Part shown: positions 39,201 to 64,000 of the stretch, piece after piece
Layout of the letters: each line of letters starts with the position of its first letter
Numbering within the stretch: position 1 is the stretch's first letter
Assembly (NCBI GenBank): GCA_916613615.1
Contig: OU744731.1
Location: 19,066,328-19,130,327, forward strand
Direction of reading: 5' to 3'
Length of the DNA: 64,000 bases
From: Steromphala cineraria
Taxonomy: Eukaryota > Mollusca > Gastropoda > Trochida > Trochidae
The notes under the pieces: model-generated
What the model was told of the DNA's origin: nothing
The model's database searches: none
Seen by the model: the letters and a program-made list of their open reading frames with translations, nothing else
Position numbers and translations under genes: made by a program

Positions 39201-42200
39201 TTATTGTTTTATCTTTCATGATAAATGCAATACATTGATTTCATTAATTATGGTTATTCTTTATCAAATTTAATGCATCAATACATTGCCTTTTTCCACA
39301 TTGAATTGAAAATCATAAATAAAAGTAATGCTTTAGGAGGGAATGAAATAGAATACATGAAAGTTACTTCATTGCATTGATTAAGCAGCATTTGTTTAAA
39401 GGTTAACCTTTGAAAATTGTAAGAACTCTTCACAACTTATAAACAACATTTATGAAATTTTGACTCTATCTTCCTTTCAAGTTTACAGAATAGATTACAC
39501 TTTCTCTAGGAGATGTAATAAATGGAATATAGGAGACTGAATCCTTGCCTATCAGAATTCATTCAACTTTTCACTTTATCTGTACTAATTGCAACAGTGG
39601 TTCATTTCATAATTTCTGCCAGATTTCCATGGTACCATTCCATCTCTCTTGAATATTACATTCAATCTTCCAATTAAGATACAGTCAAGTGTCAAATTTA
39701 AATTTCTAATTCATCAAAGTGTCAACACAATCTTCTTTGTTAACTTTCTGTACTGTAAATACCTGAAAAAGTAATTTCTCTTCTGCATCCCATATTTACT
39801 TTAGAATTGATGTTCAAAAAGGTAACATGTTGAATGATCAATGTTTTTTTGTAATGGTCCCGTCATTACAACTGAATTACAACTGTTTATTGAAAGTTAA
39901 TTGCATCTCCTACGTAAGTGAATAATGATAAATTGCTACTATATTTGCTTTACAGGCTTCATCAGAATGCAACAAAGCTTTTTATATGTCAGCGGTTATA
40001 GTTTCAAGGCTTACATACTCTCCAATTATTCCTGTCTATGACTGTGCTCCTATGTACATTCCCAGAAGAGCACAGAACTGATTATAGCATATCTCACTGC
40101 ATGCATTTTTTATTGCTTTTGCCTGTGGGTCAATGCAGAGTATATCATGAGAGATGGTTGGAGGGCTGGACAATGGTAGGCAAATAGATATAACCAGTCC
40201 ATCATCTGGGAACAATATCCTCCTACTGGAATTGCTCCGACTTCACCTGCATACCAAAAGTTTGTTCACAAAATGGAAGGAAGAAGGTGAAAAACCAAGT
40301 AAATTCTTCTTATCATTAGAAAACAGAAACTTCTTGAATAAAGCAATTTATAAACTAGAAAATAAACATAAAGAAATACTCACTAAAAAAGAAGATTTGA
40401 TAACTGAAACCAGATCATTTTATCATAACTTGTATCAGAAAAAGTCAAGTGCAACAGTTAATTTTTCAGAATTATTCAAAGATATAGAACAGGATATACC
40501 AAAGTTGTCAAAAACACAACAAGAAAACCTTGAAGGACAACTGAAATACGACGAAGTACTAAACACTCTGAAAAAAATGAAAAATGAAAAAAGCCCCGGC
40601 TCATCTGGTTTTACTGTTGAATTCTTTAAATTCTTCTGGCTCAATCTTCACGAACACCTTATAAGATCATTGAACCTTGCATATGAAAAAGGTGAACTTT
40701 CCCTGACTCAAAAACAAGGTATTATAACCTGTTTTCCAAAAAAAGGAAAACCTAAACATCTGATTAAAAATTGGCGACCAATCTCTTTACTTAACGTTGC
40801 ATATAAAATCGGATCATCAACTATTGCTAACAGAATAAAAACTGTTCTACCCACTATTATAAACGAAGATCAAAAAGGATTCATGTCCAAAAGATATATT
40901 GGTGAATGTACCCGTTTAATATATGATATTATTGACTACATTGAATACATGAAAATTCCAGGTATTCTTCTCCTTATAGACTTTGAAAAAGCTTTCGACT
41001 CCGTTGATTGGGATTTTATTCAAGAAGTCCTCAAATTCTTTAATTTTGGAGAATCTATTACAAGATGGATAAATACTTTCTTTAACAATATTCAGTCCTG
41101 TGTTGTAGTAAATGGATTCCTCTCAAACTATTTTAGTGTCTCACGAGGCTGCAGACAGGGAGATCCCATTTCTCCATACATTTTTTTACTTTGTGCTGAA
41201 ATTTTAGCTATAATGATAAGAAATAATAAACAAATTAAAGGAATACGAATTGGAGAGAAAGAATACCTTATTTCTCAGTACGCTGACGACACAGCACTCA
41301 TATTAGACGGCACTGAAAAATGTTTGCAGGCTACACTAGAAACTCTTCGTCAATATGCCTCCTTTTCAGGCCTAAATATTAACTTAACTAAAACTCAGGT
41401 AGTATGGATAGGCTCTCAGAAAAACTCTAACAAAAAACTTTGCAGAAACTGGAACCTGAACTGGAAAAATGACTCATTCATATTATTAGGCATTATATTT
41501 ACTCATAATCTTGCAGAAATGGTCGAAAGAAACTATAAGGATAAACTAAAGACGCTCAAGCACTCTATGAATCAATTGCTAGCAAGAGATTTAACACCCT
41601 TAGGTAGAAATGCCATTCTTAAAAGCTTACTCCTGCCACAACTTAATCATCTTTTTGCAACTTTGCCCAACCCAAACCACAAACTTATCAAAGAAATTGA
41701 ACAACTATGTTTCAAATTCATATGGAAAAATAAACCCGACAAAGTTAGTCGTGACACTATTACTAAAGATTATGACCAAGGCGGAATAAGGGCACCTGAT
41801 ATATTAAACCTCATCCGATCACAAAAAATATCGTGGATTAAAAGAATATTTAATACAGATTCAAAAATAAGGAACTTATTACAGAGAAGTACAAAATGTA
41901 ACATAACCGACTTCATACAAACTTGCGAAACATACATAATGGAATCGGTATTAACGCCACAGACAAATCAATTCTGGAAAGACACATTAAAATCTTGGGG
42001 CAAATTCCTAAATAAAAAATCCCAAAACGTCGAACAATTGGAGGATATCTTAACACAACCCCTATGGTTAAATGAAAACATTAAAATAGATGGCAAAATA
42101 ATTAACTATAAACACTACTCAAGCAAGGGTATAACTTATATTAATGACTTATTAGACAACAATGGAACCTTCCTAACAGTGGAGCAATTAAAATGTCAAT

Positions 42201-45200
42201 ACGGATGCAAAACAAATTTCTTAGAGCGCCAAGGTATATTAGAATCCGTTAAATGTTACTGTAAATCCAGAAACATCAATATTGCCATGAAAATTGACCT
42301 CCCAATCTTACCCTTTTTTCTGAAAGATATTGTCAGAAATCCAAAAGGATGCCGAGAAATTTATGATACACTGATAAAAAGTAATACCACTAAACTCCTA
42401 AAATACAGAGAAAAATGGCAAAAAGAATTAAATGAATTTATTGATGAGAACACATGGAACACGATAGAGAAGACCACCTTCAACTCATACAATAGTGTAA
42501 AGCATTCTTGGTTCAAATATAGTGTATTGCATAGGCTTCTACCAACAAACGAATTATTAACAAAAATGAAACTTAAGGAATCTAACAAATGTACCTTTTG
42601 CAAGACCGAAAAAGAATCAATAATTCATCTGTTATATGATTGCAAATATGTGAAACAAATTTGGGGAGAAATCGAAGAATGGATATTTAGCAAAACAGGA
42701 ACTAACATAATATTCTCAAACAAAAACGTTGTTCTAGGATATTGCGAAAAGAGAAATTATGTACTAAATCTTATAATAACTACGACCAGCTATAACATAT
42801 ACAAGATGAAATTGCAAGAAAAAATACCAAATATTAGATATGTTAAGGAGGATATAAAGACCACATATAATATTGATCGCTTCAACGCTTTCACAAACTG
42901 TAAGTATGACAATTTTATGAAGTTTTGGTCATTATGTCACAATCTATTTTGAATATCATATAACACTGAATGAACCTATATGTATATGTATATATGCTAT
43001 TTTTGAATGCCTTCTATTGCCTATCATCGACATGTATTAATTAAACCATATGTTTTTGTTATGATGTGGATGTTGAATATGTAACATGTTTTGTATGGAG
43101 TGTTAAAAATAAAAAGTTAAAAAAAAAAAAAAAAAAAAAAGTTTGTTCACTTACTCTTGTATAGCAAATAGCATATGTTATAGTTTTGTTGTCTTTTAAA
43201 TACCTTCAACTGAACAGACAAAAGATTATTATTTATCCATGTATCAACTAATTATTTATTAACTTATTTTGGAATTGTCTAGCTTTGGCCAGAAGGGACC
43301 TATTTTTATGTTTGGATGTAAAATTTGGACAAAAATATTTCTATATCTCTCTATGAAAAAGCACAGTGTAAAAAACAAAAACTCATATGACCTTTGGAGA
43401 CATATGACTTTCTAAGAGATTTTGTAAACAAAAATAGAACAAAAGACCCCTGCCCCTATAGTCAATGAATTGACCTGTAAACATTGTAAGGTTCAAATGT
43501 GGAATATTAAATATATTTAGTACGCCTGAAGCGAAAATATCATTATTATATATAAAATATTATAACATTATCCTTTCCAATTTTAAATGTTGATTCTGTC
43601 TTGATGATATCTCAAACCACATGATATTTGCACTAGGATATGCAGGCTGTGAACAAACTTTTGGTATGCAGCTGTATTGTCCACCAATGGGACCTATTGT
43701 GCAAATATATTCAACAGAAAATGTATGAGGAAAAAGAGGAGCTCAAATGATGTTGGAAGATAATCTACATTTAAGATTGGGCTGCTAGATGCTTTCTATA
43801 CATGCAATATGTCCTTTGATAGTTGCAGATTTCACAAGGGATGTCAACCTCACGTTACATTTTCATAAAGTTGCTTTTTTTCTTCACAATATCACTTACT
43901 TCCATTATAGACATAAATTGCCCATAAAATGTGAATTATACTAGGAGTATTAGCATCATGCACCTCAACTGAAAACCAATCTCTTCTGTATCCTCTTGTC
44001 ATGAAACTTACTACCTTTGGGAAACGTAACTTTGCAGAAGAATTTTGTTTTTGTATTGGTTAGATGTATATTGTGACTATAGAAAATAAAATGGAAAAAC
44101 TCAAACTGTCCCTCAAAAATTACTTAGCTTAGCTTAGCTTAGGAAAATCTTATTTCTGCCGATATTGTACTAAGAATATTGTAAGATCGACTTATACATC
44201 TTTCCATTTCCATTTACGCCAGCATGCTTTCTTACACTGCGGTCACTCAAGGTTATTCCTTCCATGAAACCTATTTAAAATAAATTGGCCATTTCCTTGG
44301 CTAGAAAAACTAAATCATGATTGGTCGCATTAATATATTTTTATGCCATCAATGATATTGTTTCAAACTTAACACATCATCTGTTCCTGTAACTGCTGAT
44401 AAGACTGGAGTTCCTTCACTTGTGAGTAGTGCACCTATATTTCTTACGAGACAGGAACCAGTTAGAAATGTAGAAACTGCCTTATCATAAGATAGAAATA
44501 ATGGTGAAATGCAGGTTTCCCTAGTATATTCCGCTTGGGAAATAAATCATATTTGTAAAATATGCCATCCCATAATGCATTGTGCTATGCGAAACTATTT
44601 GACCCGATCAATTTTTAGACATTTTAACATGCTTCGCAAGTTGTAGCTGTAATTTTATTAAAAATGATCAAAACATTTTCAACAATTTTTAAAACAATTT
44701 GCATGTTCAGCGGTGATTGGTATCTTTTATCTTGTTCAACCCCAGAATGTTTGGTTGAAATTGAAGAATCATGATCTAAGGTAATTACACTGCAGAATGC
44801 ACAGGTCAAATATGGAATTGTCACACTCGATCCAACCAATCAGATTTGACTATGAGAGACAGGAAGTGAGATGTCAGCTAGTTATTGGCTGTCTGAGCTC
44901 AGACTCTCTGTATTTCATAACCAACCCCGAGGGATTGCAGCCTTTTAGCAGCTTGCAGTCGGAATATAAAGACAAACACCACTGTTTATACAGCGTGTAT
45001 ATTTTCACAGTGACAAGTTTGGGTATTTGTGGAGAGGAGCCTGTAGACTCATATGGGAATAGTTTGTGTGCAGAGAGGGAACAAAGGTAGCAAGTTACAG
45101 CCTGAATCTGGCTAACATTCAGTCTTCTCTTATAAAGATGAAGAACAAAGAAGTGTGAAGATGAAAAAATGGAAACAATATCTTGAAGGTTAAAAAGTTA

Positions 45201-54200: not shown

Positions 54201-57200
54201 GCAGTATTTCAGCTTTAAATACTGCCAAATATTGACATACCTTATCGTAAAATTACCACATGTACATGCCCATTTAAAATGGTTTATGTTCTGATTACTA
54301 AAATATTAATGTTCTACTTTGTATAAAGATACTATAACCATTCATATCTAAGACAAAATAAATGGTTTATATCTGTGTACCTCTTATTTTCACAAAACAC
54401 TGATGTATTTCAATCTGTTCCCTACGGGTCTACTTCCAAACAATGTAGGATGCAATTACTTGTCTGACATTTGCACAAAACATATGAAGAATTATGATGG
54501 ATAATAGTTTTAAAGTTTAAAGAGCACTAGGTTTTGTTTAACTCAGTTATAGGCAGTGTATGCCTTGAGCAAGTATACACGTTTCTTTACAATGACAGCA
54601 ATCAGTTATTTGTTGAAAGTTATTGGAAACTACTTTTTGACTGAGACATAAATTGTTTGTGAAGTATCAGTTCTATTACTTGTACATAATTGCTTTCTAT
54701 GAACAAAATGAAAACTGAACTTATCAAAAATGCAAAATTAACAGCTAATAAATATCATAAAACTTAACATAACATACTTCTTTATAGCAGTTTTTGAAAA
54801 ACAATGAATGCTAAAGCTTTATAATATTCTAATCTCTTTCTGCTTACCGGTAATTACATGTATATTCTCAACAAGATTATTGAAAATTTTCCAAGATATA
54901 CTTTCTCTTTTTGCATTGATCGATTATAATCAGTTACACAAAATAACTATAGAGGTCAAGCATATCATATATATATATTCAATTTGTTTTAGAACATTAT
55001 CATATTTGTCAAATTGAGACTGAAAGCAATGTCCCTTTGGGTCTAGTATTTTGCTACAGAAGTTCCTTAGTTAGAATTTTGATCTGGACTATTACTGAAG
55101 CCCAGCATGAGTATTGAGAATGTTTCCAATATTCAATTTACAAAACACTTACATGAACAACTTTTATCAACTTTTTAATATTTATCTTTTTATCAATATT
55201 TTTAATAATATTCATGTATGCTCTGTGATGATGCAAGAGAAATTTCTATTGAGCATATATGAATTTTAAATATTTTTTAAGGACGTAATGGATTGTGCTT
55301 TGACTACAGTGCACACAATGACAAGATCAATGCCTGTTAAAGGTCTGAAAGTAACACATGATATTGACAGCGTTGTTTATAAAGAACGCAGCTTGGTTTC
55401 ACCGAGTGATTAGACACGATCTCTCACTCCCATGGATAAACAAATGATGACGTTTCATCACTACTTATTGATTGATTGGCAAAGGAATCGTCCTCTCTCA
55501 ACATAGACGTGTCCACGTCAATTTCAACAAAAGCATGTCAATAACACCAAAGTATGTCAATATTGACAGTAATTTGTGGATAGGAGATAATGTCCATTAC
55601 ATACATTTAACAAACCATCGTAATGTCCTAAAATTTATCAATAATTTACATCCTTGTTCGTGTTCAAATATCATTAACATTAGGATATTTTGACTATTAA
55701 GTTATTGCCTTATTCATGCTTTAGAGATAACAATATTGTAACAAGTAAAGTAATTTTATTGAGCGGGGATCAGAAATACCTTATTTACAATTTGGACATT
55801 TGTGATTGATTTTCCATATTTACTTTCAAAAATTTCTCACACAGTCTATATAATGTACATTATGTAATGAAATTAAAGACTTACTGTACATATCACCTCC
55901 AATCACTTCCTGGTTAAACCATCTATTAGTTTCAGAAGTTACGAAGTTGTATTGCTGAAAAAAAGAAATTGATGATATCAATATGAATGTATAAATACAT
56001 ACAAAAGAGGTATTCCACATGCTGGATCCTAATCCATACACCCTGTAAACAGACTCTTAAATGTTGTTGTCTTGGGTTTTTCAAGGGTCAAAAATAGAGC
56101 CATTGGCTCTGTAGTTCACCAGGCTTCATTATCAATTATGCTTTATATATATTAGGGGTCACAGGACCACCAAAGCTACAATTCATAATCCTCATCAGTC
56201 AAGGAGTCTGTACACAAAGTTTCAGCTTTCTAGGCCTCATGGTTCTAGAGAAGAAGATGAAAATAGGTTTTTAGGGCGTGGCTCCTGTGACCCTTATTAG
56301 GGGTCACAGGGCCACCAAAGCTACAATTTATAATCCTTACTAGTCAAGGAGTCTGTACACAAAGTTTCAGCTTTCTAGGCCTCATGGTTCTAGGGAAGAA
56401 GATCAAAATAGGTTTTTAGGGCGTGGCCCCTGTGGCTCTTATTAGGGGTGACAGGGCCACCAAAGCTACAATTTATAATCCTCATCAGTCAATGAGATTG
56501 TACACAAAGTTTCAGATTTCTAGGCCTCATGGTTCTGGAGAAGAAGATGAAAATAGGTTTTTAGGGCGTGGCCCCTGTAGTCCTTATTAGGGGACACAGG
56601 GCCACCAAAGCTACAATTTATAATCCTCACTAGTCAAGGGGTCTGTACACAAAGTTTTAGATTTCTAGGCCTCATGGTTCTGGAGAAGAAGATGAAAATA
56701 TGTTTTTAGGGCATGGCCCCTGTGGCCCTTATTAGGGATCACAGGGCCACCAAAGCTACAATTTTTAATCCTCACTAGTCAAGGAGTCTGTACACAAAGT
56801 TTCAGCTTTCTAGGCCTCATGGTTCTAGGGAAGAAGATCAAAATAGGTTTTTAGGGCGTGGCCCCTGTGGCTCTTATTAGGGGTGACAGGGCCACCAAAG
56901 CTACAATTTATAATCCTCATCAGTCAATGAGATTGTACACAAAGTTTCAGATTTCTAGGCCTCATGGTTCTGGAGAAGAAGATGAAAATAGGTTTTTAGG
57001 GCGTGGCCCCTGTAGTCCTTATTAGGGGACACAGGGCCACCAAAGCTACAATTTATAATCCTCACTAGTCAAGGGGTCTGTACACAAAGTTTTAGATTTC
57101 TAGGCCTCATGGTTCTGGAGAAGAAGATAAAAATATGTTTTTAGGGCATGGCCCCTGTGGCCCTTATTAGGGATCACAGGGCCACCAAAGCTACAATTTA

Positions 57201-60200
57201 TAATCCTTACTAGTCAAGGAGTCTGTACACAAAGTTTCAGCTTTCTAGGCCTCATGGTTCTAGGGAAGAAGATCAAAATAGGTTTTTAGGGCGTGGCCCC
57301 TGTAGTCCTTATTAGGGGTCACAGGGCCACCAAAGCTACAATTTTGAATCCTCACTAGTCAAGGAGTCTGTACACAAAGTTTTAGATTTCTAGGCCTTAT
57401 GGTTCTGGAGAAGAAGTCGAAATTCCACAAAGTTTACGGACGGATGGACGGACGGACGGATGGAAGGATGGACGGACGGACGCCGGACACCATGCCATGC
57501 CATAAGCCCATCGGGCCTTACAGGCCAGATGAGCTAAAAAGTGAAAAAGGGTTTTCCATCTCATTGAGATTAATACAGTGGTAGCCTAGAACAAAAACTA
57601 TCTTTGATGAAAATAGTTCTACTGCATTGTGATGTGTAAACATATTTTATTCCATAAAGAAAACACATATGGCTGGATTGGGAAACAAGCAGTAATGCTT
57701 ATATAAATCCCTCTCCAGTATACATAAATTACATTTTCTTAAATTGTTAAAACTTACAAAAGCATATTACCCCGTACATAAACTAAGGATCATGGTCAGA
57801 ATAACATAAGAATTAAGGATATATATATACTGCACTGTGATGGCAGTTTCATTTCTGACATTTCTTTCTTAACAAAATGAGAAAAAGTGCAAGTATTTAT
57901 TGAGTCATACACATATCAAAAAGAAATGGTATTCCTATGAACTTGAACTCGCTCAAACCAGGGGGTTAATATGCAGAGAAAGTATGAAACTTATCAAGCA
58001 ATACTTTTTACTAACATTCAATTGATACATATTCACTGTTAGAAAAAACTTTCATCTATTTGAAAGGCTAATATATAATAGTATGTATTTCAAGTGACAT
58101 CTGGTATTTGAACACTTTACATATATGTATAAAATAAGGCCAATAAAAACTTACTTTTTTCGTTGTATCGAAATATGTTGTGACATCGTCTAGCGCAAAT
58201 GTCACTGTATCATCTATCACATTTATTCCATAGTGTAAATTGGTGCTCACAACAGTCAAACATATCACATAGATTCTGAAACAGATCATAAATACATATT
58301 ATTTGTTGTAAATTGATTTTATCAAAAATCCTTCAGAATCAATTAAAGGAAATAATACCTTAACAACTTAACAAAACTTAACAAAACTCCTTTACAAATG
58401 GAACATTTGCTTGCAATATCAATTGGCGGCTATAAGTTATTGCTAGCTGAAAACTGAAATTTAGAATGTTAGCTGGATATCATCCATATTTTATCAAGTG
58501 AAAAAAAAAAAAAAATAGTTTAAGTGAAGCATGAAAACCTTTTTCCTTTTTTTCTCTTAACAATTTTTCAAAGAAATTATTTACTCATTTTAGAAAACAC
58601 AATAAAACAAAGTTGGTCCATACTCACAAGCTGAGGGCTGTTCCTATATAACTACTGAGAACAAATCCCATGAAAGGTTTGTCCCTCATATAAGGCTTTT
58701 TAAGAAGATAAACGTCTTTTTTGCGTCTTCGGAACTCGTGTCGAAGAAAGACGACCATACAGATGAGGATGAAGACAATAAGAAGGCCACCGGTGAAACA
58801 CGCTACGATTACACTGACTACGTATTGTTCAGCCTGAAACACAAACATTTTAAAATTTAAATGGATGGATGAATAAATTTCCCATTTCATTTCATATTTT
58901 ACCCTTTCAAACAGTTTCATGCTATGCCCTAGATTTGGTACCCTGATGAAGGCAGTTTTGAGAGGTAGGAGGAGATGTTTTTTAGGGGAACTATTCTAAG
59001 GTCGACCATATTTTTTCCGTGTTTCTCGTCTCCCTTCGATCCTGATTTACCCTCCCAAAGTGAAATAAAAATGTGTTTTTATTTCTCATTTGTTTGACCC
59101 ACATCAATTAATATCTCTTCATTATCTAGTCCAGGAATTCCCTTTTCAAATTTGGGTTTTTACGTTACATTGTCCTTATCACAACATGACCATATATCTA
59201 GAAATTCAGATCACTTTTTTTTCTTTCTTTCTTTTTTAACTGCCTGCTCACATACAGAAGGAGTTATGAGATGAGAAACATCAAAACAAATATGAATGGC
59301 CTAATGCTGTTATTTTCCATTTTAAGTAATATTGAAAATTGCAATTTATATGTTTATATCCAGATTTAAATATACTGAATGTCAAAAGTGGCAACTAAAA
59401 CAACATCTATGGAGTTGAAATTTGCTGAGAAGTTTTTCTTTAGGATGCTTTATCAAAGCCAACTATATATGAGATTCACTCAATACCTACCTCTCTATCT
59501 GTGTTCTGTCCCTTGATCATTTTCCTGATGGTCTCTAAAATAGAAAACAAAATGTTTCAGGAATGGTCAAAATGATTCCATCAATTCCACAAGCTGTTTG
59601 CAGATCAAGTCTGAGGACCTTGAGGTTTCCCATGTGTCACACTGCCATTCGGAAATAGTCAACATTTCCTTTGTTTTAACTTATATTTATCCTTGTAATG
59701 ACTTGAGCAGGCAGATATCTGTCTAGATTGGGCACATTTAAAAACACATTTATTTATCATTTTCTTAAAGGGAAATTGACATGCACATGTACTATGTCAT
59801 TTTGTTAATTCATTTTGAATAAACTTCCTTTTCTCACAACTTAAACCATTGATGTTATGATAATCTGCATGTCTATGCTTATCTATGCATCTAGGAGTTG
59901 AAAACATTAGCAAAGAAAGATGTCTAAAATAATGGTTTTGTAACTTTTACTTTTATCTTTACTTTTACTTTTATCTTTACTCTTACTTGTTTTGATACTT
60001 TTCATCCAATTTCAGTTGGTAACATTTAGGAATCACTAGTCTTTGATTTTCAATTATTTCACAAACAACAATTAACATTTTTGTTTGTTCTAAGAATGAT
60101 GAGATTGATTATAAAAAAATATAACTGATATTTTCATTCCAGAAAGACGTTTGAAGACAACGAATTCTTGTTTTTTCAAAAGTAATGGTCAAAAGAACTG

Positions 60201-63200
60201 ATTTACTTTTGTTTTCATAAAAATCGTTTCTGTATCATTACCAGTTTTTCATCAAAAAGTGTTTTAAAAAAACATTCAACTAAGAAAATTTCAATATTGC
60301 CCAAAGAAGAATTCTTGAATTAGCTGAGCAAGGAAAAACCTTCCAAGCTTAACAATGTTTTTGAAAGCCAAGAGCAATTCTGCAGTTATTTTAAACACTA
60401 CCTCAAGAGGTATGCATGAATCAGTTTTCCATGCTGAGAGCTTCTTTATCTTGCTTTCTTGAAGGGATTGAAAGATTGTTGTGCAATCAGTTTTGTTTAA
60501 CATCAACTGTAAGTTTGAAAATTATGCTGCTTGCTTATATGAGCTTATATGATACTTAAAACATCTCCAAATAGAGCCATTGTCTCTGTATCTCAACAGG
60601 CGTCATTCAATATATAAAAAGTGACCCTAAGACTAACATATTAAGGTCATCAGTGCCACTAATTCCAGAATTATAATCATCTTTAGCAAACATTTGAGCA
60701 ACATTTCAGATTTTTAAAACGTTTGCTTCAGGAGAAGAGGACTTCAGGGCTTGGAGTCTATGTCCCATATCATGGTGCCACAGGACTACTAAATTCATAA
60801 ATCATTATCCTCACTTTCCTCTGCACACAAGATTTCACATTTCACAAGTCAGTCGCAGAGAAAGTTTATTTCTTGATGGAGAGACTAATGGACAAGATGA
60901 AAGCCAGTTATTCTTTCAAATTACCAAAACAAGCTATCAAAACTGTTTTCAATGCACCATTGAGTATTGACCTACCTGAAGGGAAGGGCTCCTGCTGGAT
61001 ACTGTTGAGTATTGACCTACCTAAAGGGAAGGGCTCCTTCTGGATACTGTTGAGTATTGACCTACCTGAAGGGAAGGGCTCCTGCTGGATACTGTTGAGT
61101 ATTGACCTACCTAAAGGGAAGGGCTCCTGCTGGATACTGTTGAGTATTGACCTACCTGAGGGGAAGGGCTCCTGCTGGATACTGTTGAGTATTGACCTAC
61201 CTGAGGGGAAGGGCTCCTGCTGGATACTGTTGAGTATTGACCTACCTGAAGGGAAGGGCTCCTGCTGGATACTGTTGAGTATTGACCTACCTAAAGGGAA
61301 GGGCTCCTGCTGGATACTGTTGAGTATTGACCTACCTGAAGGGAAGGGCTCCTGCTGGATACTGTTGAGTATTGACCTACCTAAAGGGAAGGGCTCCTGC
61401 TGGATACTGTTGAGTATTGACCTACCTAAAGGGAAGGGCTCCTGCTGGATACTGTTGAGTATTGACCTACCTGAAGGGAAGGGCTCCTGCTGGATACTGT
61501 TGAGTATTGACCTACCTAAAGGGAAGGGCTCCTGCTGGATACTGTTGAGTATTGACCTACCTGAAGGGAAGGGCTCCTGCTGGATACTGTTGAGTATTGA
61601 CCTACCTGAAGGGAAGGGCTCCTGCTGGATACTGTTGAGTATTGACCTACCTAAAGGGAAGGGCTCCTGCTGGATACTGTTGAGTATTGACCTACCTGAA
61701 GGGAAGGGCTCCTGCTGGATACTGTTGAGTATTGACCTACCTAAAGGGAAGGGCTCCTGCTGGATACTGTTGAGTATTGACCTACCTGAAGGGAAGGGCT
61801 CCTGCTGGATACTGTTGAGTATTGACCTACCTGAGGGGAAGGGCTCCTGCTGGATACTGTTGAGTATTGACCTACCTGAGGGGAAGGGCTCCTGCTGGAT
61901 ACTGTTGAGTATTGACCTACCTAAAGGGAAGGGCTCCTGCTGGATACTGTTGAGTATTGACCTACCTGAAGGGAAGGGCTCCTGCTGGATACTGTTGAGT
62001 ATTGACCTACCTAAAGGGAAGGGCTCCTGCTGGATACTGTTGAGTATTGACCTACCTAAAGGGAAGGGCTCCTGCTGGATACTGTTGAGTATTGACCTAC
62101 CTAAAGGGAAGGGCTCCTGCTGGATACTGTTGAGTATTGACCTACCTAAAGGGAAGGGCTCCTGCTGGATACTGTTGAGTATTGACCTACCTGAAGGGAA
62201 GGGCTCCTGCTGGATACTGTTGAGTATTGACCTACCTAAAGGGAAGGGCTCCTGCTGGATACTGTTGAGTATTGACCTACCTGAAGGGAAGGGCTCCTGC
62301 TGGATACTGTTGAGTATTGACCTACCTGAAGGGAAGGGCTCCTGCTGGATACTGTTGAGTATTGACCTACCTGAAGGGAAGGGCTCCTGCTGGATACTGT
62401 TGAGTATTGACCTACCTAAAGGGAAGGGCTCCTGCTGGATACTGTTGAGTATTGACCTACCTGAAGGGAAGGGCTCCTGCTGGATACTGTTGAGTATTGA
62501 CCTACCTGAAGGGAAGGGCTCCTGCTGGATACTGTTGAGTATTGACCTACCTGAAGGGAAGGGCTCCTGCTGGATACTGTTGAGTATTGACCTACCTGAA
62601 GGGAAGGGCTCCTGCTGGATACTGTTGAGTATTGACCTACCTAAAGGGAAGGGCTCCTGCTGGATACTGTTGAGTATTGACCTACCTAAAGGGAAGGGCT
62701 CCTGCTGGATACTGTTGAGTATTGACCTACCTAAAGGGAAGGGCTCCTGCTGGATACTGTTGAGTATTGACCTACCTGAAGGGAAGGGCTCCTGCTGGAT
62801 ACTGTTGAGTATTGACCTACCTAAAGGGAAGGGCTCCTGCTGGATACTGTTGAGTATTGACCTACCTGAAGGGAAGGGCTCCTGCTGGATACTGTTGAGT
62901 ATTGACCTACCTGAAGGGAAGGGCTCCTGCTGGATACTGTTGAGTATTGACCTACCTGAAGGGAAGGGCTCCTGCTGGATACTGTTGAGTATTGACCTAC
63001 CTAAAGGGAAGGGCTCCTGCTGGATACTGTTGAGTATTGACCTACCTGAAGGGAAGGGCTCCTGCTGGATACTGTTGAGTATTGACCTACCTGAAGGGAA
63101 GGGCTCCTGCTGGATACTGTTGAGTATTGACCTACCTGAAGGGAAGGGCTCCTGCTGGATACTGTTGAGTATTGACCTACCTGAAGGGAAGGGCTCCTGC

Positions 63201-64000
63201 TGGATACTGTTGATGACCGCCCGAGAGAAAGCAATGGTCAGCTCCCATCCCTGAGTTGGTGCGTCCCTCGTCAACCCATGGTAGTTACCTGAAACAAAAC
63301 AAATATATGATAACAATGAATCCTTAATTAATAGGCAAGTCATAAGGTAAATTCTAGAGAACATGCTATATTTTAATGCATGATAAGTTTGCAATAAAAT
63401 GTATATATCCAGGCTCTTTAACATCATGTTTTGTTAAGGTGATGATAATCAATGATTTATAGAAGAGCTCAAATTTTTCATAATCCTTTCATATCATTCC
63501 TTTCCTGAGGCTTTATAAAAATTTTAGCAGCATCATATTGACAAGTAGAGTTGATGGCCTGTAGGTTAATAATGTGTAACAAAAAGATTCTTCACCTTAT
63601 AGAACATAAGAAACATACAGTTTGTTATCCATATACCAATAAATCATATGTCACAAAATTGCAATTATATATCATATACTAGTATTATACCATTAAAGCA
63701 AATTTCAAATTGCAAAAATCGTTGCATGCAAATATAATAAAGAAGTTGTCAGTCCATAATATAACTCTATCATACTGTTCTATTACTAAGACAGTCATAG
63801 GTAGTATACATTTTATAATGGCGTCAATGCACAATCTAATCTTGAAAATCACAAAAATAAAACTTTCGGTCTATATTTTTCAAAGCTTATTAACATTAAA
63901 AAGATCATGGGTACAATACATGTGCTTTGTTCCTCATGTTGATGGCATGTCTATATCCTCACCTATTCCTTTCTTAAATTGGTTCAAAAGTTTAGCCTCT
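1..64000 (-). CDS. prom: Prominin-like pentaspan membrane glycoprotein gene (25 exons, both ends outside window)
   Basis: Prominins are cholesterol-binding glycoproteins of plasma-membrane protrusions (microvilli, cilia, photoreceptor discs). Seen here: 25 minus-strand exons whose splice borders and phases all join into one frame of about 853 residues, close to the usual length of about 850. Approximate layout in the joined protein: extracellular N-terminal part 1-65, TM1 68-92, basic cytoplasmic loop, TM2 117-140, loop 1 141-390, TM3 394-417, TM4 435-462, loop 2 463-750, TM5 755-774, cytoplasmic tail from 775. Family signs are the five-segment topology, the QQEPFPS stretch before TM1, and the loop-2 cysteines, ending in MCKPLSEAHDAVV and GFCEM before TM5. 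N-glycosylation sequons occur in exons w8 (two), w11, w15, w17 and w22. The signal peptide, promoter and stop codon are not in the window. Orthology to PROM1 rather than PROM2 cannot be decided by eye. Confidence 0.9.
203..1610. other. Introns 24 and 23 region: intron 24
   Basis: Intron between w24 and w25. AT-rich, no recognisable element, tandem repeat or coding segment seen. Intron 23 (1721-2116) is likewise featureless. Confidence 0.6.
1611..1720 (-). CDS. prom: Prominin exon w24: TM5
   Basis: Starts NSAWMLLGNNTVTLLFLL, continues hydrophobic to VLYYL, then an acidic run PDDDSDDT. The acceptor TTATATAAG is weak; the donor AC|GTAAAT is phase 2. Reading through the donor gives an immediate stop (ACG TAA), so retention of this intron would end the protein right after the acidic run. 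Confidence 0.86.
2117..2203 (-). CDS. prom: Prominin exon w23: end of loop 2, paired cysteines
   Basis: Encodes IHTLGMCKPLSEAHDAVV then YGFCEMIADFE. The C-x2-L-x3-HDAVV-x3-C pattern just before the last membrane segment is the clearest prominin signature in the window. Acceptor TATGTACAG, donor GAG|GTATGT. Confidence 0.92.
2593..2935. mobile_element. Short inverted-repeat element (MITE), family GGGGCAGTAGC, copy 1
   Basis: About 343 bp with terminal inverted repeats AAGGGGCAGTAGCACG at the left and the matching CATGCTACTGCCCCTT at the right, over 21 bases with few mismatches. A second full copy lies at 17911-18250 and a solo right end near 30570-30617. No coding capacity; the target duplication is not clear. 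Confidence 0.8.
2974..3042 (-). CDS. prom: Prominin exon w22: loop 2
   Basis: Encodes GVDQYRPEFLTAVSRFAN then QSQQW, with sequon NQS. Acceptor CATTCTGCAG, donor TGG|GTGAGA. Confidence 0.86.
3043..3696. other. Intron 21, nothing recognised
   Basis: AT-rich intron sequence between w21 and w22. No repeat or element seen. Confidence 0.55.
3697..3777 (-). CDS. prom: Prominin exon w21: loop 2
   Basis: Encodes 27 residues, DVTKNAVLKLRSYDSLL through SADLIRE. Acceptor TACTTTCCAG, donor GAG|GTGGGT. The preceding intron holds the nested mobile elements. Confidence 0.86.
4351..8323 (+). mobile_element. Innermost Helentron-like element (family B), inserted in family A
   Basis: Relative to the 31-kb copy of family A, an extra 4 kb sits between CCTATA and AAAAATTACAAAAC. 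The insert starts near GTACCGAGGGTAC and AAGCTCACCTT, and ends with a hairpin of AGCTCAC and GTGAGCT arms (8294-8322). Its right third has six clean tandem repeats of about 157 bp (CCATCTTGGATTCTC at about 7313 to 8093), then an ACGG/ACAG microsatellite (8218-8276). Degraded repeat units occur near 4450, 4610 and 5870. A diverged duplication of about 560 bp spans about 6080 to 6990. No open reading frame of note. Confidence 0.72.
5086..5155 (+). repeat. G-rich tract
   Basis: About 70 bases with seven or more runs of G, including runs of seven and eight, inside the family B element. It could form a G-quadruplex on the plus strand (non-template for the LINE orientation, antisense to prominin). 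No function claimed. Confidence 0.6.
10237..10290 (-). CDS. prom: Prominin exon w20: loop 2
   Basis: A small symmetrical exon of 18 codons, DSIQTAFRAYQAEIQHIQ. Acceptor ATATTTACAG, donor CAG|GTAATA. Short, but held by its borders and phase. Confidence 0.8.
10291..10985. other. Intron 19, nothing firm
   Basis: Mostly AT-rich. A short CpG-bearing stretch with repeated AATCCG/TCCGC motifs lies at 10566-10612. No element or coding sequence recognised. Confidence 0.5.
10986..11057 (-). CDS. prom: Prominin exon w19: loop 2
   Basis: Encodes ESLKDIADRLNSVKQQL and ends EMSSMK, with heptad-like hydrophobic spacing compatible with the helical bundle of prominin loops. Acceptor CTTTGTTCAG, donor AAG|GTGAGC. 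Confidence 0.85.
11165..11265 (+). mobile_element. Relic right end of a family A element
   Basis: About 100 bp matching the end of the 56-57.5 kb copy: GAATCCTCATTACTAAGGAG, then GCCGGACACCATGCCATGC, CATCGGGCC and AGATAAGTTAAAAA. The core repeats and left end are missing. Confidence 0.7.
11610..11714 (-). CDS. prom: Prominin exon w18: loop 2
   Basis: Encodes LGAEVVKADVPAYIDNLL and then a segment ending PMTPAK. Acceptor TCTACCCACAG, donor AAG|GTACCA. Symmetrical phase 0. Confidence 0.86.
11931..11970. repeat. Solo terminal repeat of the TTAA-type MITE
   Basis: TTAAAGGGACAGTCC followed by AGGGGTATTTTTTGG, matching the ends of the element at 26572-26698. No partner end is seen nearby. Confidence 0.6.
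12409..12476. repeat. Two-copy tandem duplication, about 35 bp
   Basis: AAACAATAACATCAATAAC... through TTAGAATTAT is repeated twice head to tail without a mismatch in intron 17, so it is a recent slippage event. Confidence 0.85.
12601..12741 (-). CDS. prom: Prominin exon w17: loop 2
   Basis: Encodes 47 residues from PFQNINSSFDKMYVDL to FDLPAYEKM, with sequon NSS. Acceptor TTTCATTTCAG, donor ATG|GTGTGT. Phase 0 on both sides, as for the next exons down to w24. Confidence 0.88.
12742..13641. other. Intron 16, nothing recognised
   Basis: AT-rich intron between w16 and w17; no element or repeat seen. Confidence 0.5.
13642..13729 (-). CDS. prom: Prominin exon w16: loop 2
   Basis: Encodes SCQQRWGAYSVLHHHLL, then a short run ending TDMEYQQ. 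The acceptor is ATGTTGACAG and the donor CAG|GTAGAG. The 51-bp minisatellite lies 81 bases upstream of the acceptor. The cysteine followed by WGAYSVL is the family-like position after the DIYK segment. Confidence 0.85.
13811..15010. repeat. 51-bp minisatellite, 23.5 copies (intron 15)
   Basis: Unit begins TACAATACATCCATTGGACC and the period is exactly 51 from 13811 to 14984, so there are no net indels in 23 copies. Variants are point changes (CCTATC, TTATTC, TTATCC; CATCC or CATTC). As 51 is divisible by three, long open frames appear on both strands (17-residue repeats); they are by-products. The array ends 81 bases upstream of the w16 acceptor. Confidence 0.97.
15362..15465 (-). CDS. prom: Prominin exon w15: loop 2
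   Basis: Encodes VLDVPNTVNQ through ILGNGNYTLLSKDIY, with one sequon (NYT). The acceptor CTGATTAAG is pyrimidine-poor; the donor AA|GTAAGT is strong. It ends in phase 2 with a lysine codon completed by w16. Confidence 0.85.
15466..16224. other. Intron 14 left part, nothing recognised
   Basis: AT-rich sequence; no repeat or gene seen up to the inverted-repeat element at 16225. Confidence 0.5.
16225..16404. mobile_element. hAT-like MITE with C-tracts
   Basis: Ends AGCGGATCCAGG and CCTGGATCCGCCCTT are inverted, and the element is flanked by the direct repeat GTCACT (16219-16224 and 16405-16410), extendable with mismatch toward the 8-bp duplication of hAT elements. It contains a C tract of about 20 bases at 16320-16339. 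Confidence 0.78.
16501..16520. repeat. (TA)n microsatellite
   Basis: About 20 bases of alternating AT lying 8 bases downstream of the w14 donor on the minus strand. Confidence 0.85.
16528..16654 (-). CDS. prom: Prominin exon w14: TM4 and start of loop 2
   Basis: Starts SIGGCIALSLVFMSL (TM4), then FYAGVNLESGVCQPG, which places the first loop-2 cysteine soon after the membrane. Acceptor CATTTCAG, donor AAG|GTGTGC, phase 0 exit. Confidence 0.88.
16921..17260. mobile_element. Inverted-repeat element rich in TAAGCGCCC
   Basis: The left end TTCGACCTAATAAGCGCCC and the right end, whose reverse complement is ATTCGACGTATTAAGTGCCC, form terminal inverted repeats. The motif AATAAGCGCCC recurs at both ends as subterminal repeats. 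Length is about 340 bp; no coding capacity; superfamily not assigned. Confidence 0.7.
17318..17464 (-). CDS. prom: Prominin exon w13: TM3 and second cytoplasmic loop
   Basis: Starts YGFTWVFVFINVVGC, a hydrophobic TM3, then the basic loop KGKREGRRGG and the start of TM4 at YMLFM. Acceptor TCTATTCAG, donor GG|GTGAGT. Split codons at both ends are completed by neighbours. Confidence 0.88.
17730..17803 (-). CDS. prom: Prominin exon w12: end of loop 1
   Basis: Encodes DMFFPVFRENFKSFDKRLV and ends SDTA plus two bases of an arginine codon. Acceptor TTTATTCCAG, donor CTAG|GTACGT. It leads directly into TM3 in w13. Confidence 0.85.
17911..18250. mobile_element. MITE, family GGGGCAGTAGC, copy 2
   Basis: Same family as 2593-2935, with ends AAGGGGCAATAGCAAG and CGTGCTACTGCCCCTT. 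The interior shares TTTTGACAGT...TCATTACACAAGCC and ACATAAAATCCATTGG with copy 1. Confidence 0.82.
18375..18619. mobile_element. Inverted-repeat element, 32-bp arms
   Basis: AGGAAGACAAGAGTGATTCT... (18375-18406) is repeated inverted at 18588-18619 with about two mismatches. Total is 245 bp with an AT-rich interior. Probably a MITE. Confidence 0.75.
18723..18799 (-). CDS. prom: Prominin exon w11: loop 1
   Basis: Encodes LNATISSYSKHIADSTANL followed by IFPSEN. It has one sequon (NAT). Acceptor ATTTTTCAG, donor AAT|GTGAGT, phase 0 exit. Confidence 0.85.
18800..20090. other. Intron 10 left part, nothing firm
   Basis: AT-rich except for a slightly CG-richer stretch at about 19260-19350. No repeat, element or coding segment recognised. 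Confidence 0.5.
20093..20256. mobile_element. Tc1/mariner (pogo/Tigger-like) MITE, copy 1
   Basis: TA target sites at both edges, ends CAGTAGAACACGGATATAG and its inverse ATATCCGAGTTCTACTG, 164 bp, AT-rich inside. The CAGTAGAAC...GGATATA end is typical of pogo/Tigger-derived short elements. Confidence 0.82.
20426..20492 (-). CDS. prom: Prominin exon w10: loop 1
   Basis: Encodes PEYYYDKGLAAVITGRVAG and ends phase 1. Acceptor TTGTTTCAG, donor GTG|GTAGGT. A split glutamate codon joins w11. Confidence 0.83.
20493..22703. other. Intron 9, first part (minus-strand 3' side)
   Basis: No mobile element recognised. At 22515-22605 a 42-bp unit containing GCAGTCTTAGATCAGTCA is repeated about twice and gives a short open frame with a 14-residue repeat. 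No splice-compatible prominin exon is needed here. Confidence 0.5.
22706..22879. mobile_element. Tc1/mariner (pogo/Tigger-like) MITE, copy 2
   Basis: Flanked by TA, ends CAGTAGAACACGGATAAAAT and ACTATATCCGTGTTCTACTG, 174 bp. Same family as 20093-20256, 2.4 kb away. Confidence 0.82.
22882..23900. other. Intron 9, unassigned stretch
   Basis: AT-rich, with no element, tandem repeat or gene seen. Confidence 0.5.
23905..25416 (+). mobile_element. Helentron-like tandem-core element (family D)
   Basis: The left end includes GATGTCCCCCG. The core is about eight repeats of roughly 170 bp, marked by AAAAGGCACCACTC (about 24027 to 25222), whose identity rises to the right. Next comes an ACGGAATC microsatellite (25318-25375), then a 3' hairpin with arms TATGTCTCCCGAAA (25384-25397) and TTTCGGGGGACATA (25402-25415). 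It is related in plan and partly in sequence (ACATACCAAGTTT) to family C at 3.9-10 kb. Confidence 0.75.
25417..26567. other. Intron 9, unassigned stretch
   Basis: Nothing recognised; short open frames here look random. Confidence 0.5.
26572..26698. mobile_element. 127-bp foldback MITE with TTAA target sites
   Basis: TTAA at both edges (26568-26571, 26699-26702) and near-complete inverted arms of about 35 bases: AGGGACAGTCCTATC, then GGGTATT, then GTGGAAAAA, mirrored at the right. TTAA targets are typical of piggyBac-type transposases. Confidence 0.85.
26703..29440. other. Intron 9, unassigned stretch
   Basis: AT-rich. A perfect tRNA-like B-box GGTTCGAATCCC sits at about 27018-27029 without a clear A-box. 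At 28285-28370 a motif around AAGTCATGTTATTTCTTC is repeated three times. No gene seen. Confidence 0.45.
29445..30000. repeat. Diverged tandem duplication, about 340 bp period
   Basis: TTCACTGACAGCCACAAGTC...GATTCTGGTGTCAGTA at about 29471 recurs as TTCACTGACATCCACAAGTC at about 29801, and the similarity runs on through the GTGAAAA segment. A weaker third copy may begin near 30080. Confidence 0.65.
30541..30617. mobile_element. Solo right end of the GGGGCAGTAGC MITE family
   Basis: AAAAACATGTTACTGCCCCTT matches the right ends of the copies at 2593 and 17911; the left end is missing. Confidence 0.6.
30980..32334 (+). mobile_element. Pearl/HINE-like element (family A), copy 2, uninterrupted
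   Basis: Left end AGAGCCATTGGCTCT and TAGCTCATCAGGCATC; about seven core repeats of roughly 146 bp (GTGACCC... from 31239 to 32115); ACGG microsatellite (32255-32290); terminal hairpin CATCTGGACT...AGTCCTGATG (32308-32330). Nearly identical to copy 1 (4241-9850) and supplies the empty site for the insertion in copy 1. Confidence 0.8.
32335..34082. other. Intron 9, unassigned stretch
   Basis: AT-rich; nothing recognised. Confidence 0.5.
34083..34495. mobile_element. Inverted-repeat element with GCGTAATGCG subterminal repeats
   Basis: The left end TTAAGCTGGCATTACATGTG and the inverted right end CACATGGAATGCCAGCCTAA form TIRs. The interior carries many copies of ACGCATTAC / GTAATGCG on both strands, giving a highly foldable 413-bp sequence. 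It ends 40 bases from the w9 donor. Possibly hAT-like, not proven. Confidence 0.75.
34535..34609 (-). CDS. prom: Prominin exon w9: loop 1
   Basis: Encodes LPSISSNVEKLNRLASS and ends FTETMQN, phase 0 on both sides. Acceptor TTGTCCGCAG, donor AAT|GTAAGT. An inverted-repeat element ends only 40 bases past the donor. Confidence 0.85.
34610..36849. other. Intron 8, nothing firm
   Basis: AT-rich intron; a short CT microsatellite is at 35740-35754. A 105-residue minus-strand open frame at 36193-36510 shows no family likeness and lacks prominin-compatible borders. Confidence 0.5.
36850..37052 (-). CDS. prom: Prominin exon w8: loop 1, cysteine-rich and glycosylation sites
   Basis: The acceptor is GCCCCTTGCAG and the donor CCAG|GTAGAT. 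The exon codes a helix-like stretch with sequon NIT, then TRRGWTCIGCDGNCTGC, where four cysteines are spaced C-x2-C-x3-C-x2-C and overlap a second sequon (NCT). It ends VVNDIFYQ in phase 0. It is the only coding sequence between two introns of 2.2 and 16.8 kb. Confidence 0.88.
37196..38845. repeat. 23/29-bp minisatellite (intron 7)
   Basis: Units of 29 bp (TTCCTGCATTCTATTATTCT plus CCTATCCTG) mixed with 23-bp units lacking the TTCCTGC segment; CTCCTATCC and TTCCAATCC variants alternate. Neither length is a multiple of three, so all three plus-strand frames are open; they are by-products. The array begins about 145 bases upstream of the w8 acceptor. Copies decay toward the right. Confidence 0.95.
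38553..38935. repeat. Duplicated CAACAGAGTCCAA...GGAGCAGATGCC block within the array flank
   Basis: The segment TTGTATTCCAACAGAGTCCA and following CTGGAGCAGATGCC occurs at about 38563-38600 and again at about 38859-38896. The second copy runs into a GC-rich stretch to 38935. It shows that a larger block was duplicated with the array. Confidence 0.75.
38936..40255. other. Intron 7, unassigned stretch before the LINE
   Basis: AT-rich; no element or gene recognised. Confidence 0.5.
40256..40269. repeat. 5' target-site duplication of the LINE
   Basis: AAAAGTTTGTTCAC, repeated at 43137-43150 directly after the poly(A) tail (the four A bases overlap the tail). The implied first cut, TTTT|GG, resembles L1-type endonuclease preference. 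Confidence 0.9.
40270..42952 (+). CDS. LINE reverse transcriptase ORF (N-terminally truncated)
   Basis: About 894 codons without a stop. In order: the linker EEGEKPSKFF; RT motifs SPGSSGFTVEFFKFFW, NWRPISLLN, LLIDFEKAFDSVDW, RGCRQGDPISPY and catalytic YADD at 41279-41290; SGLNINLTKTQ; and a C-terminal zinc-finger-like CTFCKTEKESIIHLLYDC (near 42589-42645) as in zf-RVT regions of L1/Tx1-like elements. The first in-frame ATG (40154) lies in host DNA upstream of the target duplication, so the first 38 or so residues of the open frame are not part of the element. The N-terminal endonuclease is absent. Confidence 0.93.
40270..43140 (+). mobile_element. 5'-truncated LINE (L1/Tx1-like clade), antisense to prominin
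   Basis: Bounded by a 14-bp target-site duplication. It contains an uninterrupted reverse-transcriptase frame, a 3' UTR of about 165 bp with AAATAAAAA, and a poly(A) tail of about 22. The apurinic endonuclease domain and 5' UTR are missing, so this is a dead-on-arrival copy. The intact frame and perfect duplication point to a young insertion. Confidence 0.92.
43151..46585. other. Intron 7, unassigned stretch after the LINE
   Basis: AT-rich. A moderately GC-richer piece at 44797-45090 is open for 97 codons on the plus strand (MHRSNMELSHSIQPIRF...) with no family I recognise; left uncalled. A CTTAG repeat lies at about 44124-44140. Confidence 0.45.
46588..46651 (-). mobile_element. tRNA-derived SINE head or tRNA pseudogene
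   Basis: On the minus strand TAGCCGAATCGG (46638-46627) fits an A-box and GGGTTTGCATCC (46601-46590) a degenerate B-box, about 25 bases apart. The flanks do not form a clean acceptor stem, so a functional tRNA is unlikely. Confidence 0.5.
46660..51005. other. Intron 7, unassigned stretch
   Basis: An unrecognised 118-codon open frame (46779-47135, plus) looks random. Around 48360-48690 a block with CAGACCT...CCAATATACATGTATGCA is repeated two to three times at about 120-bp spacing, diverged. Nothing else seen. Confidence 0.45.
51030..51345 (+). mobile_element. Relic of a tandem-core Helentron-like element
   Basis: Two diverged repeats of about 165 bp (AAATCTGAAGAAGTTGAAAA at about 51051 and 51207, each followed by AGGTACATCT and a TTTCA(C/T)TGAGCTA segment), ending in GAGAGACAGAGGGACGGACC, which recalls the ACGG tail of the other families. 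Confidence 0.6.
51422..51465. repeat. Perfect 17-bp stem hairpin
   Basis: CAAATACTATCAACTAT and its exact inverse ATAGTTGATAGTATTTG, separated by 10 bases. Confidence 0.85.
52024..52640. other. Intron 7, C-rich tract and AT-rich sequence
   Basis: A run of C-rich sequence with several CCCCC blocks lies at about 52075-52165. The rest is AT-rich with nothing recognised. Confidence 0.5.
52655..52960. promoter_or_regulatory. CpG-dense island with TATA and CCAAT motifs (candidate internal promoter)
   Basis: About 300 bases much richer in CG than their surroundings. On the minus strand (prominin direction) TATAAAAGG is at about 52865-52873, with an upstream GTAACCAATGG at about 52901-52911. Plus-strand CCAAT occurs twice (GCCAATCC, AACCAATCAACGGGCGTGG). 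It could be an alternative prominin promoter before exon w8, or an unrecognised mobile sequence. No downstream exon can be proven. Confidence 0.35.
53389..53478. repeat. Nested inverted repeat (foldback)
   Basis: Outer arms CCACAGGAAC and GTTCCTGTG, inner arms AATGTAGGTACAA and TTGTACCTACATT, within 90 bases. Likely a small foldback element about 400 bases from the w7 donor. Confidence 0.7.
53893..53982 (-). CDS. prom: Prominin exon w7: loop 1
   Basis: Encodes IGEILWQPGRDTF through FTSLSDLAD. The acceptor is TTGATTGCAG and the donor GACC|GTGAGT. Both ends are split codons (arginine on each side) that are completed correctly by w6 and w8. Confidence 0.82.
53983..55884. other. Intron 6, nothing recognised
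   Basis: AT-rich intron between w6 and w7 with no element or repeat seen. Confidence 0.5.
55885..55954 (-). CDS. prom: Prominin exon w6: loop 1
   Basis: Encodes QYNFVTSETNRWFNQEV and a short GGDMY tail. The acceptor has a long T tract ending TTTTTCAG; the donor is ACA|GTAAGT, phase 1. No cysteine or glycosylation site. Confidence 0.82.
56090..57539 (+). mobile_element. Pearl/HINE-like element (family A), diverged copy 3
   Basis: Left end AGAGCCATTGGCTCTGTAG, about eight core repeats of roughly 145 bp (TTTTTAGGGCGTGGC...), ACGG/ATGG microsatellite (57435-57485), 3' hairpin GGGCCTTACAGGCC and end GATGAGCTAAAAA. Units at 56414-56850 and 56850-57285 are near-identical, so a three-unit block was duplicated. 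Confidence 0.8.
57540..58154. other. Intron 5, remainder
   Basis: AT-rich; nothing recognised. Confidence 0.5.
58155..58275 (-). CDS. prom: Prominin exon w5: end of TM2 and start of loop 1
   Basis: The acceptor is TGTTTCAG and the donor AAA|GTAAGT. It continues TM2 as IYVICLTVVSTNL and enters the extracellular loop (DDTVTFALDDVTTYF). It joins w4 by a split leucine codon and ends in phase 0. Confidence 0.88.
58628..58833 (-). CDS. prom: Prominin exon w4: TM1, first cytoplasmic loop, start of TM2
   Basis: The acceptor is GTGTTTCAG and the donor GTGAGT, ending in phase 2. It opens AEQYVV, followed by a strongly hydrophobic stretch (TM1). A very basic stop-transfer run FLRHEFRRRKK follows, then KPYMRDKPFMG leading into the second hydrophobic segment. 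Vertebrate prominins, as I recall them, carry a cysteine cluster just after TM1; here the position is basic and cysteine-free. Confidence 0.88.
58834..59490. other. Intron 3, nothing recognised
   Basis: No element or tandem repeat. Intron 4 (58276-58627) carries only an A tract at 58501-58515. Confidence 0.5.
59491..59534 (-). CDS. prom: Prominin exon w3
   Basis: A short exon (44 bases) coding TIRKMIKGQNTDRE, with acceptor CTATTTTAG and donor GAG|GTAGGT. It starts with two bases completing the codon from w2 and ends in phase 0 just before TM1. Confidence 0.82.
59940..59992. repeat. TTTTAC/TTTATC microsatellite
   Basis: About 50 bases of imperfect six-base units (ACTTTT, ATCTTT) in intron 2. 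Confidence 0.75.
60573..60870 (+). mobile_element. Relic family A element next to the 45-bp array
   Basis: AGAGCCATTGTCTCTGTATCTCAACAGGCGTCATTC matches the left end of family A, followed by degraded core sequence (GGAGAAGAGGACTTCAGGGC, CACAAGATTTCA). It stops about 90 bases before the minisatellite. Confidence 0.6.
60960..63209 (-). repeat. 45-bp minisatellite, exactly 50 copies, each with the exon w2 splice donor
   Basis: Copies start at 60960 + 45n with no indel to 63209. On the minus strand each unit is 26 bases of exon w2 end (TATCCAGCAGGAGCCC plus TTCCCTTCAG) followed by 19 bases of intron start (GTAGGTCAATACTCAACAG). Three main variants differ by CTTCAG, CTTTAG or CCTCAG before the GT; all keep the donor. 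The minus frame of exon w2 stays open through every copy (15-residue repeat around INSIQQEPFPSGRSI, S or L). Confidence 0.97.
63181..63288 (-). CDS. prom: Prominin exon w2 (its 3' end lies in the 45-bp array)
   Basis: The acceptor is TTTTGTTTCAG. The exon encodes residues from NYHGLTRDAP to SIQQEPFPS and ends phase 1 at TTCAG|GTAGGT, which joins w3 as a glutamate codon. The QQEPFPS stretch matches the prominin segment ahead of TM1. The end given is the first donor met. The same donor recurs every 45 bases to 60976, all in frame, so the real exon could be 108 + 45n bases long (maximum 2313). Confidence 0.8.
63289..63962. other. Intron 1 of the window, nothing recognised
   Basis: AT-rich sequence between w1 and w2; no element seen. 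Confidence 0.5.
63963..64000 (-). CDS. prom: Prominin exon w1 (partial, cut by window edge)
   Basis: Thirty-eight bases reading EAKLLNQFKKGI plus one base of a split glycine codon, then a GTGAGG donor. It joins exon w2 in phase 1. It belongs to the extracellular N-terminal region; upstream coding sequence continues outside the window. Confidence 0.75.

Follow-up and report, generated by a model that had tools for sequence, protein, structure and literature searches.

The closest described counterpart of the locus reported here is the VNTR in intron 18 of the human gene ABCA7, which has a 25-bp unit, ranges from about 12 to about 427 copies and starts at and includes the donor of exon 18 (PMC5954066). 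The first-pass annotation of our locus named no standard feature class for such an array, and the ABCA7 case does not support the view that none exists. ABCA7 RNA shows the canonical product, made from the natural donor, and retention of one unit (25 bp) at ~2%, independent of array length. The alternative products combined exceed the canonical one in 90% of BA10 brain samples, and exon 19 skipping, which stands at 45% in these samples, rises with array length. Inhibition of decay raised the retention transcripts, and the assay was a PCR between nearby exons (PMC5954066); because the ABCA7 units break the frame, the low retention could partly reflect transcript decay.

Other systems resemble the locus in single features. 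In the potato RdRp gene, an intron was gained by a single tandem duplication across an intron-exon boundary (PMC4974935). The ratchet points of Drosophila, which are described in long introns, consist of a short pyrimidine run and an AG that directly abuts a donor (PMC8605326). In DOK7, SRSF1 bound close to the competing 5' splice sites adjusts the choice between them (PMC5585400), and papers on hTERT splicing mention VNTRs (PMC8150890, PMC6562651). The VNTR of miR-137 was considered as a precedent and rejected, because its two novel donors sit in pre-miR-137 sequence (PMC6692358). In the extracts of open-licence literature consulted, no donor array was found that is in frame or that spans exon and intron, and further precedents may exist.

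The array described below lies in a gene on the minus strand of a 64,000-nucleotide stretch of Steromphala cineraria DNA, called the window in what follows. The gene had been taken for a prominin, and this assignment is supported. Protein searches, which scored only the ~8000 candidates with most words in common, returned two relatives, an uncharacterized protein of Haliotis rubra (P0001, 468 aa) and a prominin-1-like protein of Haliotis cracherodii (P0002, 1026 aa), both with a precomputed Pfam PF05478. A tblastn with P0002, listing matches outside the array (60976-63149; those inside were seen in part with a separate tblastn), placed 24 pieces in order on the minus strand, from 63289 to 7, so that prominin pieces extend over ~63 kb of the window; w19, w20 and w24 (E 3.3, 1.5 and 0.42) were accepted among them by order alone, stray matches with E 1.5-9.7 being listed as well. 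When spliced in silico, exons w2-w14, the part covered by the checked reading, have GT-AG sites throughout and encode 475 aa, stop-free and 64.6% identical to P0002 residues 53-527. Against Pfam, the exon pieces taken singly match Prominin weakly (E 0.03) and w1-w2 alone give no Prominin match, only another family under the cut-off, while the joined pieces match PF05478 with E 3.1e-7 and 29.3 bits, below the curated 34.3. Judged from these sequences, the gene is likely a vetigastropod (abalone-like) prominin. The parts of it that matter for the array are:

63181..63288, minus strand: prominin exon w2, 108 nt, phase 1 to phase 1, with the first donor directly past 63181 (tblastn with P0001 and P0002, spliced model)
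59535..60975, minus strand: remaining intron from the last donor to w3, 1441 nt
59491..59534, minus strand: prominin exon w3, 44 nt (ETIRKMIKGQNTDRE with a split codon), acceptor TTTTAG, donor GAG|GTAGGT
58628..58833, minus strand: prominin exon w4, carrying the first transmembrane segment (tblastn, spliced model)

That exon w2 ends at the array donor, as first proposed, follows from the w2-w14 splice model, and this model together with the homology rules out w2 as a chance open frame. On the minus strand at 63283-63288, right behind its acceptor CAG, w2 opens with GTAACT, which is itself donor-like. Upstream, w1, placed where the window ends, is conjectural and has no homology match. Exon w3 gave no tblastn match and was located by comparison with 19 residues of P0002, to which it is the best match (score 32); it was chosen over a runner-up scoring 30 at 48622 (minus strand, outside window positions to ~2050) because it lies between w2 and w4 and has fitting splice sites and phase. 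A blind exon scan included w3 among 16 candidates with loose settings and gave no candidates with strict ones. Exons w3-w14 are 44-218 nt long, and skipping the 44-nt w3 would shift the frame.

The array continues directly from the natural donor of exon w2. Tandem Repeats Finder reports a period of 45 and 50.1 copies at 60960-63213, with 98% matches and 0 indels, and the motif AGGTAGGT (AG|GTAGGT) occurs 50 times on the minus strand at 60960..63288, all 49 spacings being exactly 45 bp; the 50-copy, 45-bp array of the first reading is thus confirmed by both counts, the number 50 being that of one assembly. In the whole 64-kb window, the AG|GTAGGT 8-mer has a single further site outside 60901-63300, on the minus strand, and the donor of exon w3 carries this 8-mer. 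With 50 of the 51 minus-strand sites inside the array, a chance origin of the repeat is ruled out. The donor is present in every one of the 50 units, and variation among the copies is confined to three positions (25 variant cells: 20, 4 and 1): 30 copies read CAG|GTAGGT (26 TTCAG and 4 CTCAG) and 20 read TAG|GTAGGT, one of the latter also having a C-to-A change in its exon part. The pattern of these variants reveals a block within the array, as listed here with the array itself:

60960..63213, minus strand: 45-bp minisatellite of the w2 exon-intron junction, with 50 donors AG|GTAGGT (repeat finder and motif count)
63181-45(k-1), minus strand: last exon-type base of copy k, copy 50 being at 60976
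62622..63206, minus strand: copies 1-13, variant pattern AAAABAAABABBB (variant string)
62037..62621, minus strand: copies 14-26, AAAABAAABABBB again, a 13-copy block duplication inside the array (variant string)

The makeup of the unit can be read from its edges. At period 45, the repeat takes in the final 33 bases of exon w2, and beyond the last donor the match runs on for 16 intron bases until the sequences diverge; the 4 bases TCAA occur in both flanks. Because 33 + 16 = 49 = 45 + 4, with TCAA common to the flanks, the unit consists of 29-33 exon bases and 16-12 intron bases, and the earlier division into 26 exon and 19 intron bases has to be corrected, the last three of those 19 (CAG) being exon-derived. 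With TCAA at the joint, an ordinary tandem duplication with 4-base microhomology can found the unit, and we infer that such a duplication of the w2 exon-intron junction may have been the founding event. Growth would then have proceeded by duplication of copies and of blocks: when the variant string was shuffled 2000 times, a repeat as long as the 13-copy pattern arose 5 times, and from the identical strings of copies 1-13 and 14-26 the array probably grew by block duplication as well.

Arrays are a common feature of this window. Besides the one at w2, the following repeats and elements were recorded:

13808-15018: 51-bp minisatellite, 23.7 copies, 97%, 0 indels, in the intron just before exon w16 (which starts at 13729, minus strand)
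37198-38857: 29-bp minisatellite, overlapping Tandem Repeats Finder rows of 41.7 and 59.3 copies, near end ~145 bp before exon w8 (which starts at 37052)
8451-9689, 31219-32174, 56150-57423 and 7283-8212: arrays of 145-156 bp units
40151-42952, plus strand: 933-aa open frame with RVT_1 (E 4.7e-36) and zf-RVT (E 3.9e-11)

The last of these is a retroelement that sits in an intron of the prominin gene and runs antisense to it. The 51-bp array, too, has a unit length divisible by three, and long frames are open on both of its strands. An ACGG-type microsatellite follows each of the 145-156 bp arrays within ~100 bp; the nearly identical unit shared by 8451-9689 and 31219-32174 suggests a mobile element, present in dispersed copies, that contains a minisatellite and resembles the pearl-type elements of bivalves. 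Given eight selected arrays (unit at least 29 bp, at least 6 copies, unit lengths summing to 889 bp) and the 48 exon boundaries that 24 of the 25 exon matches provide, chance alone would place 0.67 founding units on a boundary, so that founding at the w2 boundary needs no special cause. What is notable is the tolerance of the array and its growth to 50 copies, rather than its founding.

Tolerance is where the reading frame enters. With a period divisible by three and a unit that is stop-free in frame, any donor can be chosen without a frameshift, and such freedom would explain why the array was tolerated. The prediction that all donors splice in frame to w3 was borne out in silico, where joining each of them to w3 left the frame open in 50/50 cases, with 0/50 failing; each unit adds 15 residues (SGRSILNSIQQEPFP) ahead of the first transmembrane segment. 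The minus-strand frame is open across all 50 copies, its first stop lying past the array at 60910. This open frame was rejected as evidence of coding use because a 45-bp unit without a stop yields it anyway; the neighbouring intronic 51-bp array likewise has 0 indels. At 60801-63254 on the plus strand, the opposite strand of the array is open as well, for 817 codons, because the unit has no stop in that frame either.

By the standards of their own gene, the two forms of the donor differ in strength. Scored with a consensus matrix, CAG|GTAGGT reaches 6.08, and its U1 pairing is -11.3 kcal/mol (consensus -11.6) in a program that lets the G at +4 pair as a wobble and so flatters the array. By both measures it outranks the rest of the gene's scored donors, 21 in all, which reach at most 5.47 by matrix and -9.9 by pairing (donors from w15 on placed by eye, the unresolved w20 and w21 left out). 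TAG|GTAGGT, at 4.61 and -9.7, is ordinary, being beaten by 8 of the 21 by matrix and by 2 of the 21 by U1 pairing. In an RNA folding of 60 exon bases and six units, the donors are ~40% unpaired (0.39-0.43), a value that does not discriminate between readings. Acceptors within the array are another matter: the six AGs of each unit score from -10.7 to 0.2, whereas 12 of the 13 real acceptors of w2-w14 score 2.6 to 8.0, although three of the six exceed the remaining real acceptor, that of w14 (-1.1). With a 5' splice site in every copy and no convincing 3' splice site, U1 snRNP can bind 50 near-equivalent donors.

Set beside ABCA7, the prominin array likewise starts at, and includes, its exon's natural donor. 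However, the ABCA7 unit begins at the donor GT, measures 25 bp and shifts the frame when retained, whereas the 45-bp unit spans exon and intron and is open; RNA and length polymorphism are known for ABCA7, whereas the prominin array is known from the sequence of one assembly. The potato RdRp duplication also went over an exon-intron boundary, and AGGT is found in every prominin copy; there, however, the acceptor side was crossed and two copies made a new intron, whereas at w2 the donor side was repeated 50-fold, with no AG above 0.2. What is new here is a unit that takes in both exon and intron sequence, has a length divisible by three and is open in frame, in a mollusc; a donor-containing array itself was already known from ABCA7. 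Coding minisatellites, such as the mucin VNTRs, are also open, with a period divisible by three, and keep the frame whatever their copy number. Those VNTRs lie inside an exon, whereas the prominin units each carry an exon end.

The reading that we consider probable is a duplication-founded minisatellite whose first donor is used most, the later ones giving a minor in-frame ladder. The upstream-most donor, which yields the ancestral 108-nt exon, would most likely serve in most transcripts, and the other 49 would leave with the intron, while a minority of transcripts may splice from a later donor, with 15-residue units added in frame. By analogy, the ABCA7 results suggest that the first donor dominates at w2. 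Both relatives (2/2) join PFPA directly to w3-like sequence, which corresponds to the first-donor product, but their genes may lack the array. There is also an outside chance that the ladder is truly variable, the extracellular part of the protein being extended by 0 to 49 repeats of 15 residues, a number set by donor choice and allele length.

One argument against dominance of the first donor is older in vitro work on competing 5' sites, which suggests that among several equal sites bound by U1 the intron-proximal site (copy 50 in this array) can prevail, and an intron-proximal choice is a known outcome with strong competing donors. Use of the last or late donors would make the array largely coding, with up to 49 extra 15-residue repeats in the extracellular N-terminal part, their number set by VNTR length, and the minus-strand frame that runs through the 50 copies would permit it. 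We nevertheless regard it as unlikely: it requires an exon of ~2.3 kb in a gene whose w3-w14 are all far shorter, the repeat is absent from both relatives, and a query with nine extra units returned the same two proteins only and no repeat-bearing one (7996 candidates scored, 416-1323 aa). Moreover, 21 of the 25 variant cells change the residue, which gives no sign of coding constraint, although the three variable positions are a small sample. Similarly improbable is a role of the array in recruiting U1, its decoy donors strengthening the definition of w2 or suppressing premature polyadenylation, with copy number under selection. The great length of the gene would suit such a role, as would the density of U1 sites, of which 2.25 kb hold 50, with 30 close to perfect, but the eight selected arrays make up 17% of the window (10883 bases) and CAGGTAGGT and TAGGTAGGT are both absent from the window outside the 45-bp array, so that arrays are common here without U1 sites.

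Near-identical repeats are hard to assemble, and the ~65% identity to the H. cracherodii protein over w2-w14 means that the locus may be a paralogue or belong to a more distant genus. An assembly artefact, in the array or its copy number, or an untranscribed paralogue nevertheless appears decidedly unlikely, given that the assembly resolves distinct variants (copy 49 and the four CTCAG copies) as well as the unique sequence on either side, and that w2-w14 are intact across 475 codons. Very unlikely indeed is a ladder of recursive-splicing ratchet points, in which each CCCTTCCCTTCAG|GTAGGT would first act as acceptor and afterwards as donor. The usual minimum intron size is greater than 45 nt, so the step between units would be too short. 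Each unit does have a short pyrimidine run and an AG that abuts the donor, as in the Drosophila points (PMC8605326), and this AG, at -0.9, scores just above the real w14 acceptor. It is lower, however, than the 12 of 13 real acceptors that score at least 2.6, and four more AGs lie 13-26 bases upstream within the unit; the Drosophila points, moreover, are described in long introns, whereas here a weak acceptor recurs at 45-nt spacing in 50 copies that start inside a coding exon. Many good donors combined with no convincing acceptor make donor competition likelier than recursive splicing.

The locus would set up a natural 50-way competition downstream of a single exon, among 5' splice sites that are nearly identical and evenly spaced. 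Donor competition is usually studied with two or three engineered sites. The outcome is neutral to frame, so nonsense-mediated decay should not hide the products, and the locus could reveal how the spliceosome picks among equivalent donors: the first, the last or a spread of them. If the variable donor ladder were true, the splice-donor minisatellite would act as a dial for protein length, with donor choice either stochastic or regulated. For the gene itself, the array indicates that a minisatellite can seed on an exon-intron boundary while the reading frame stays intact.
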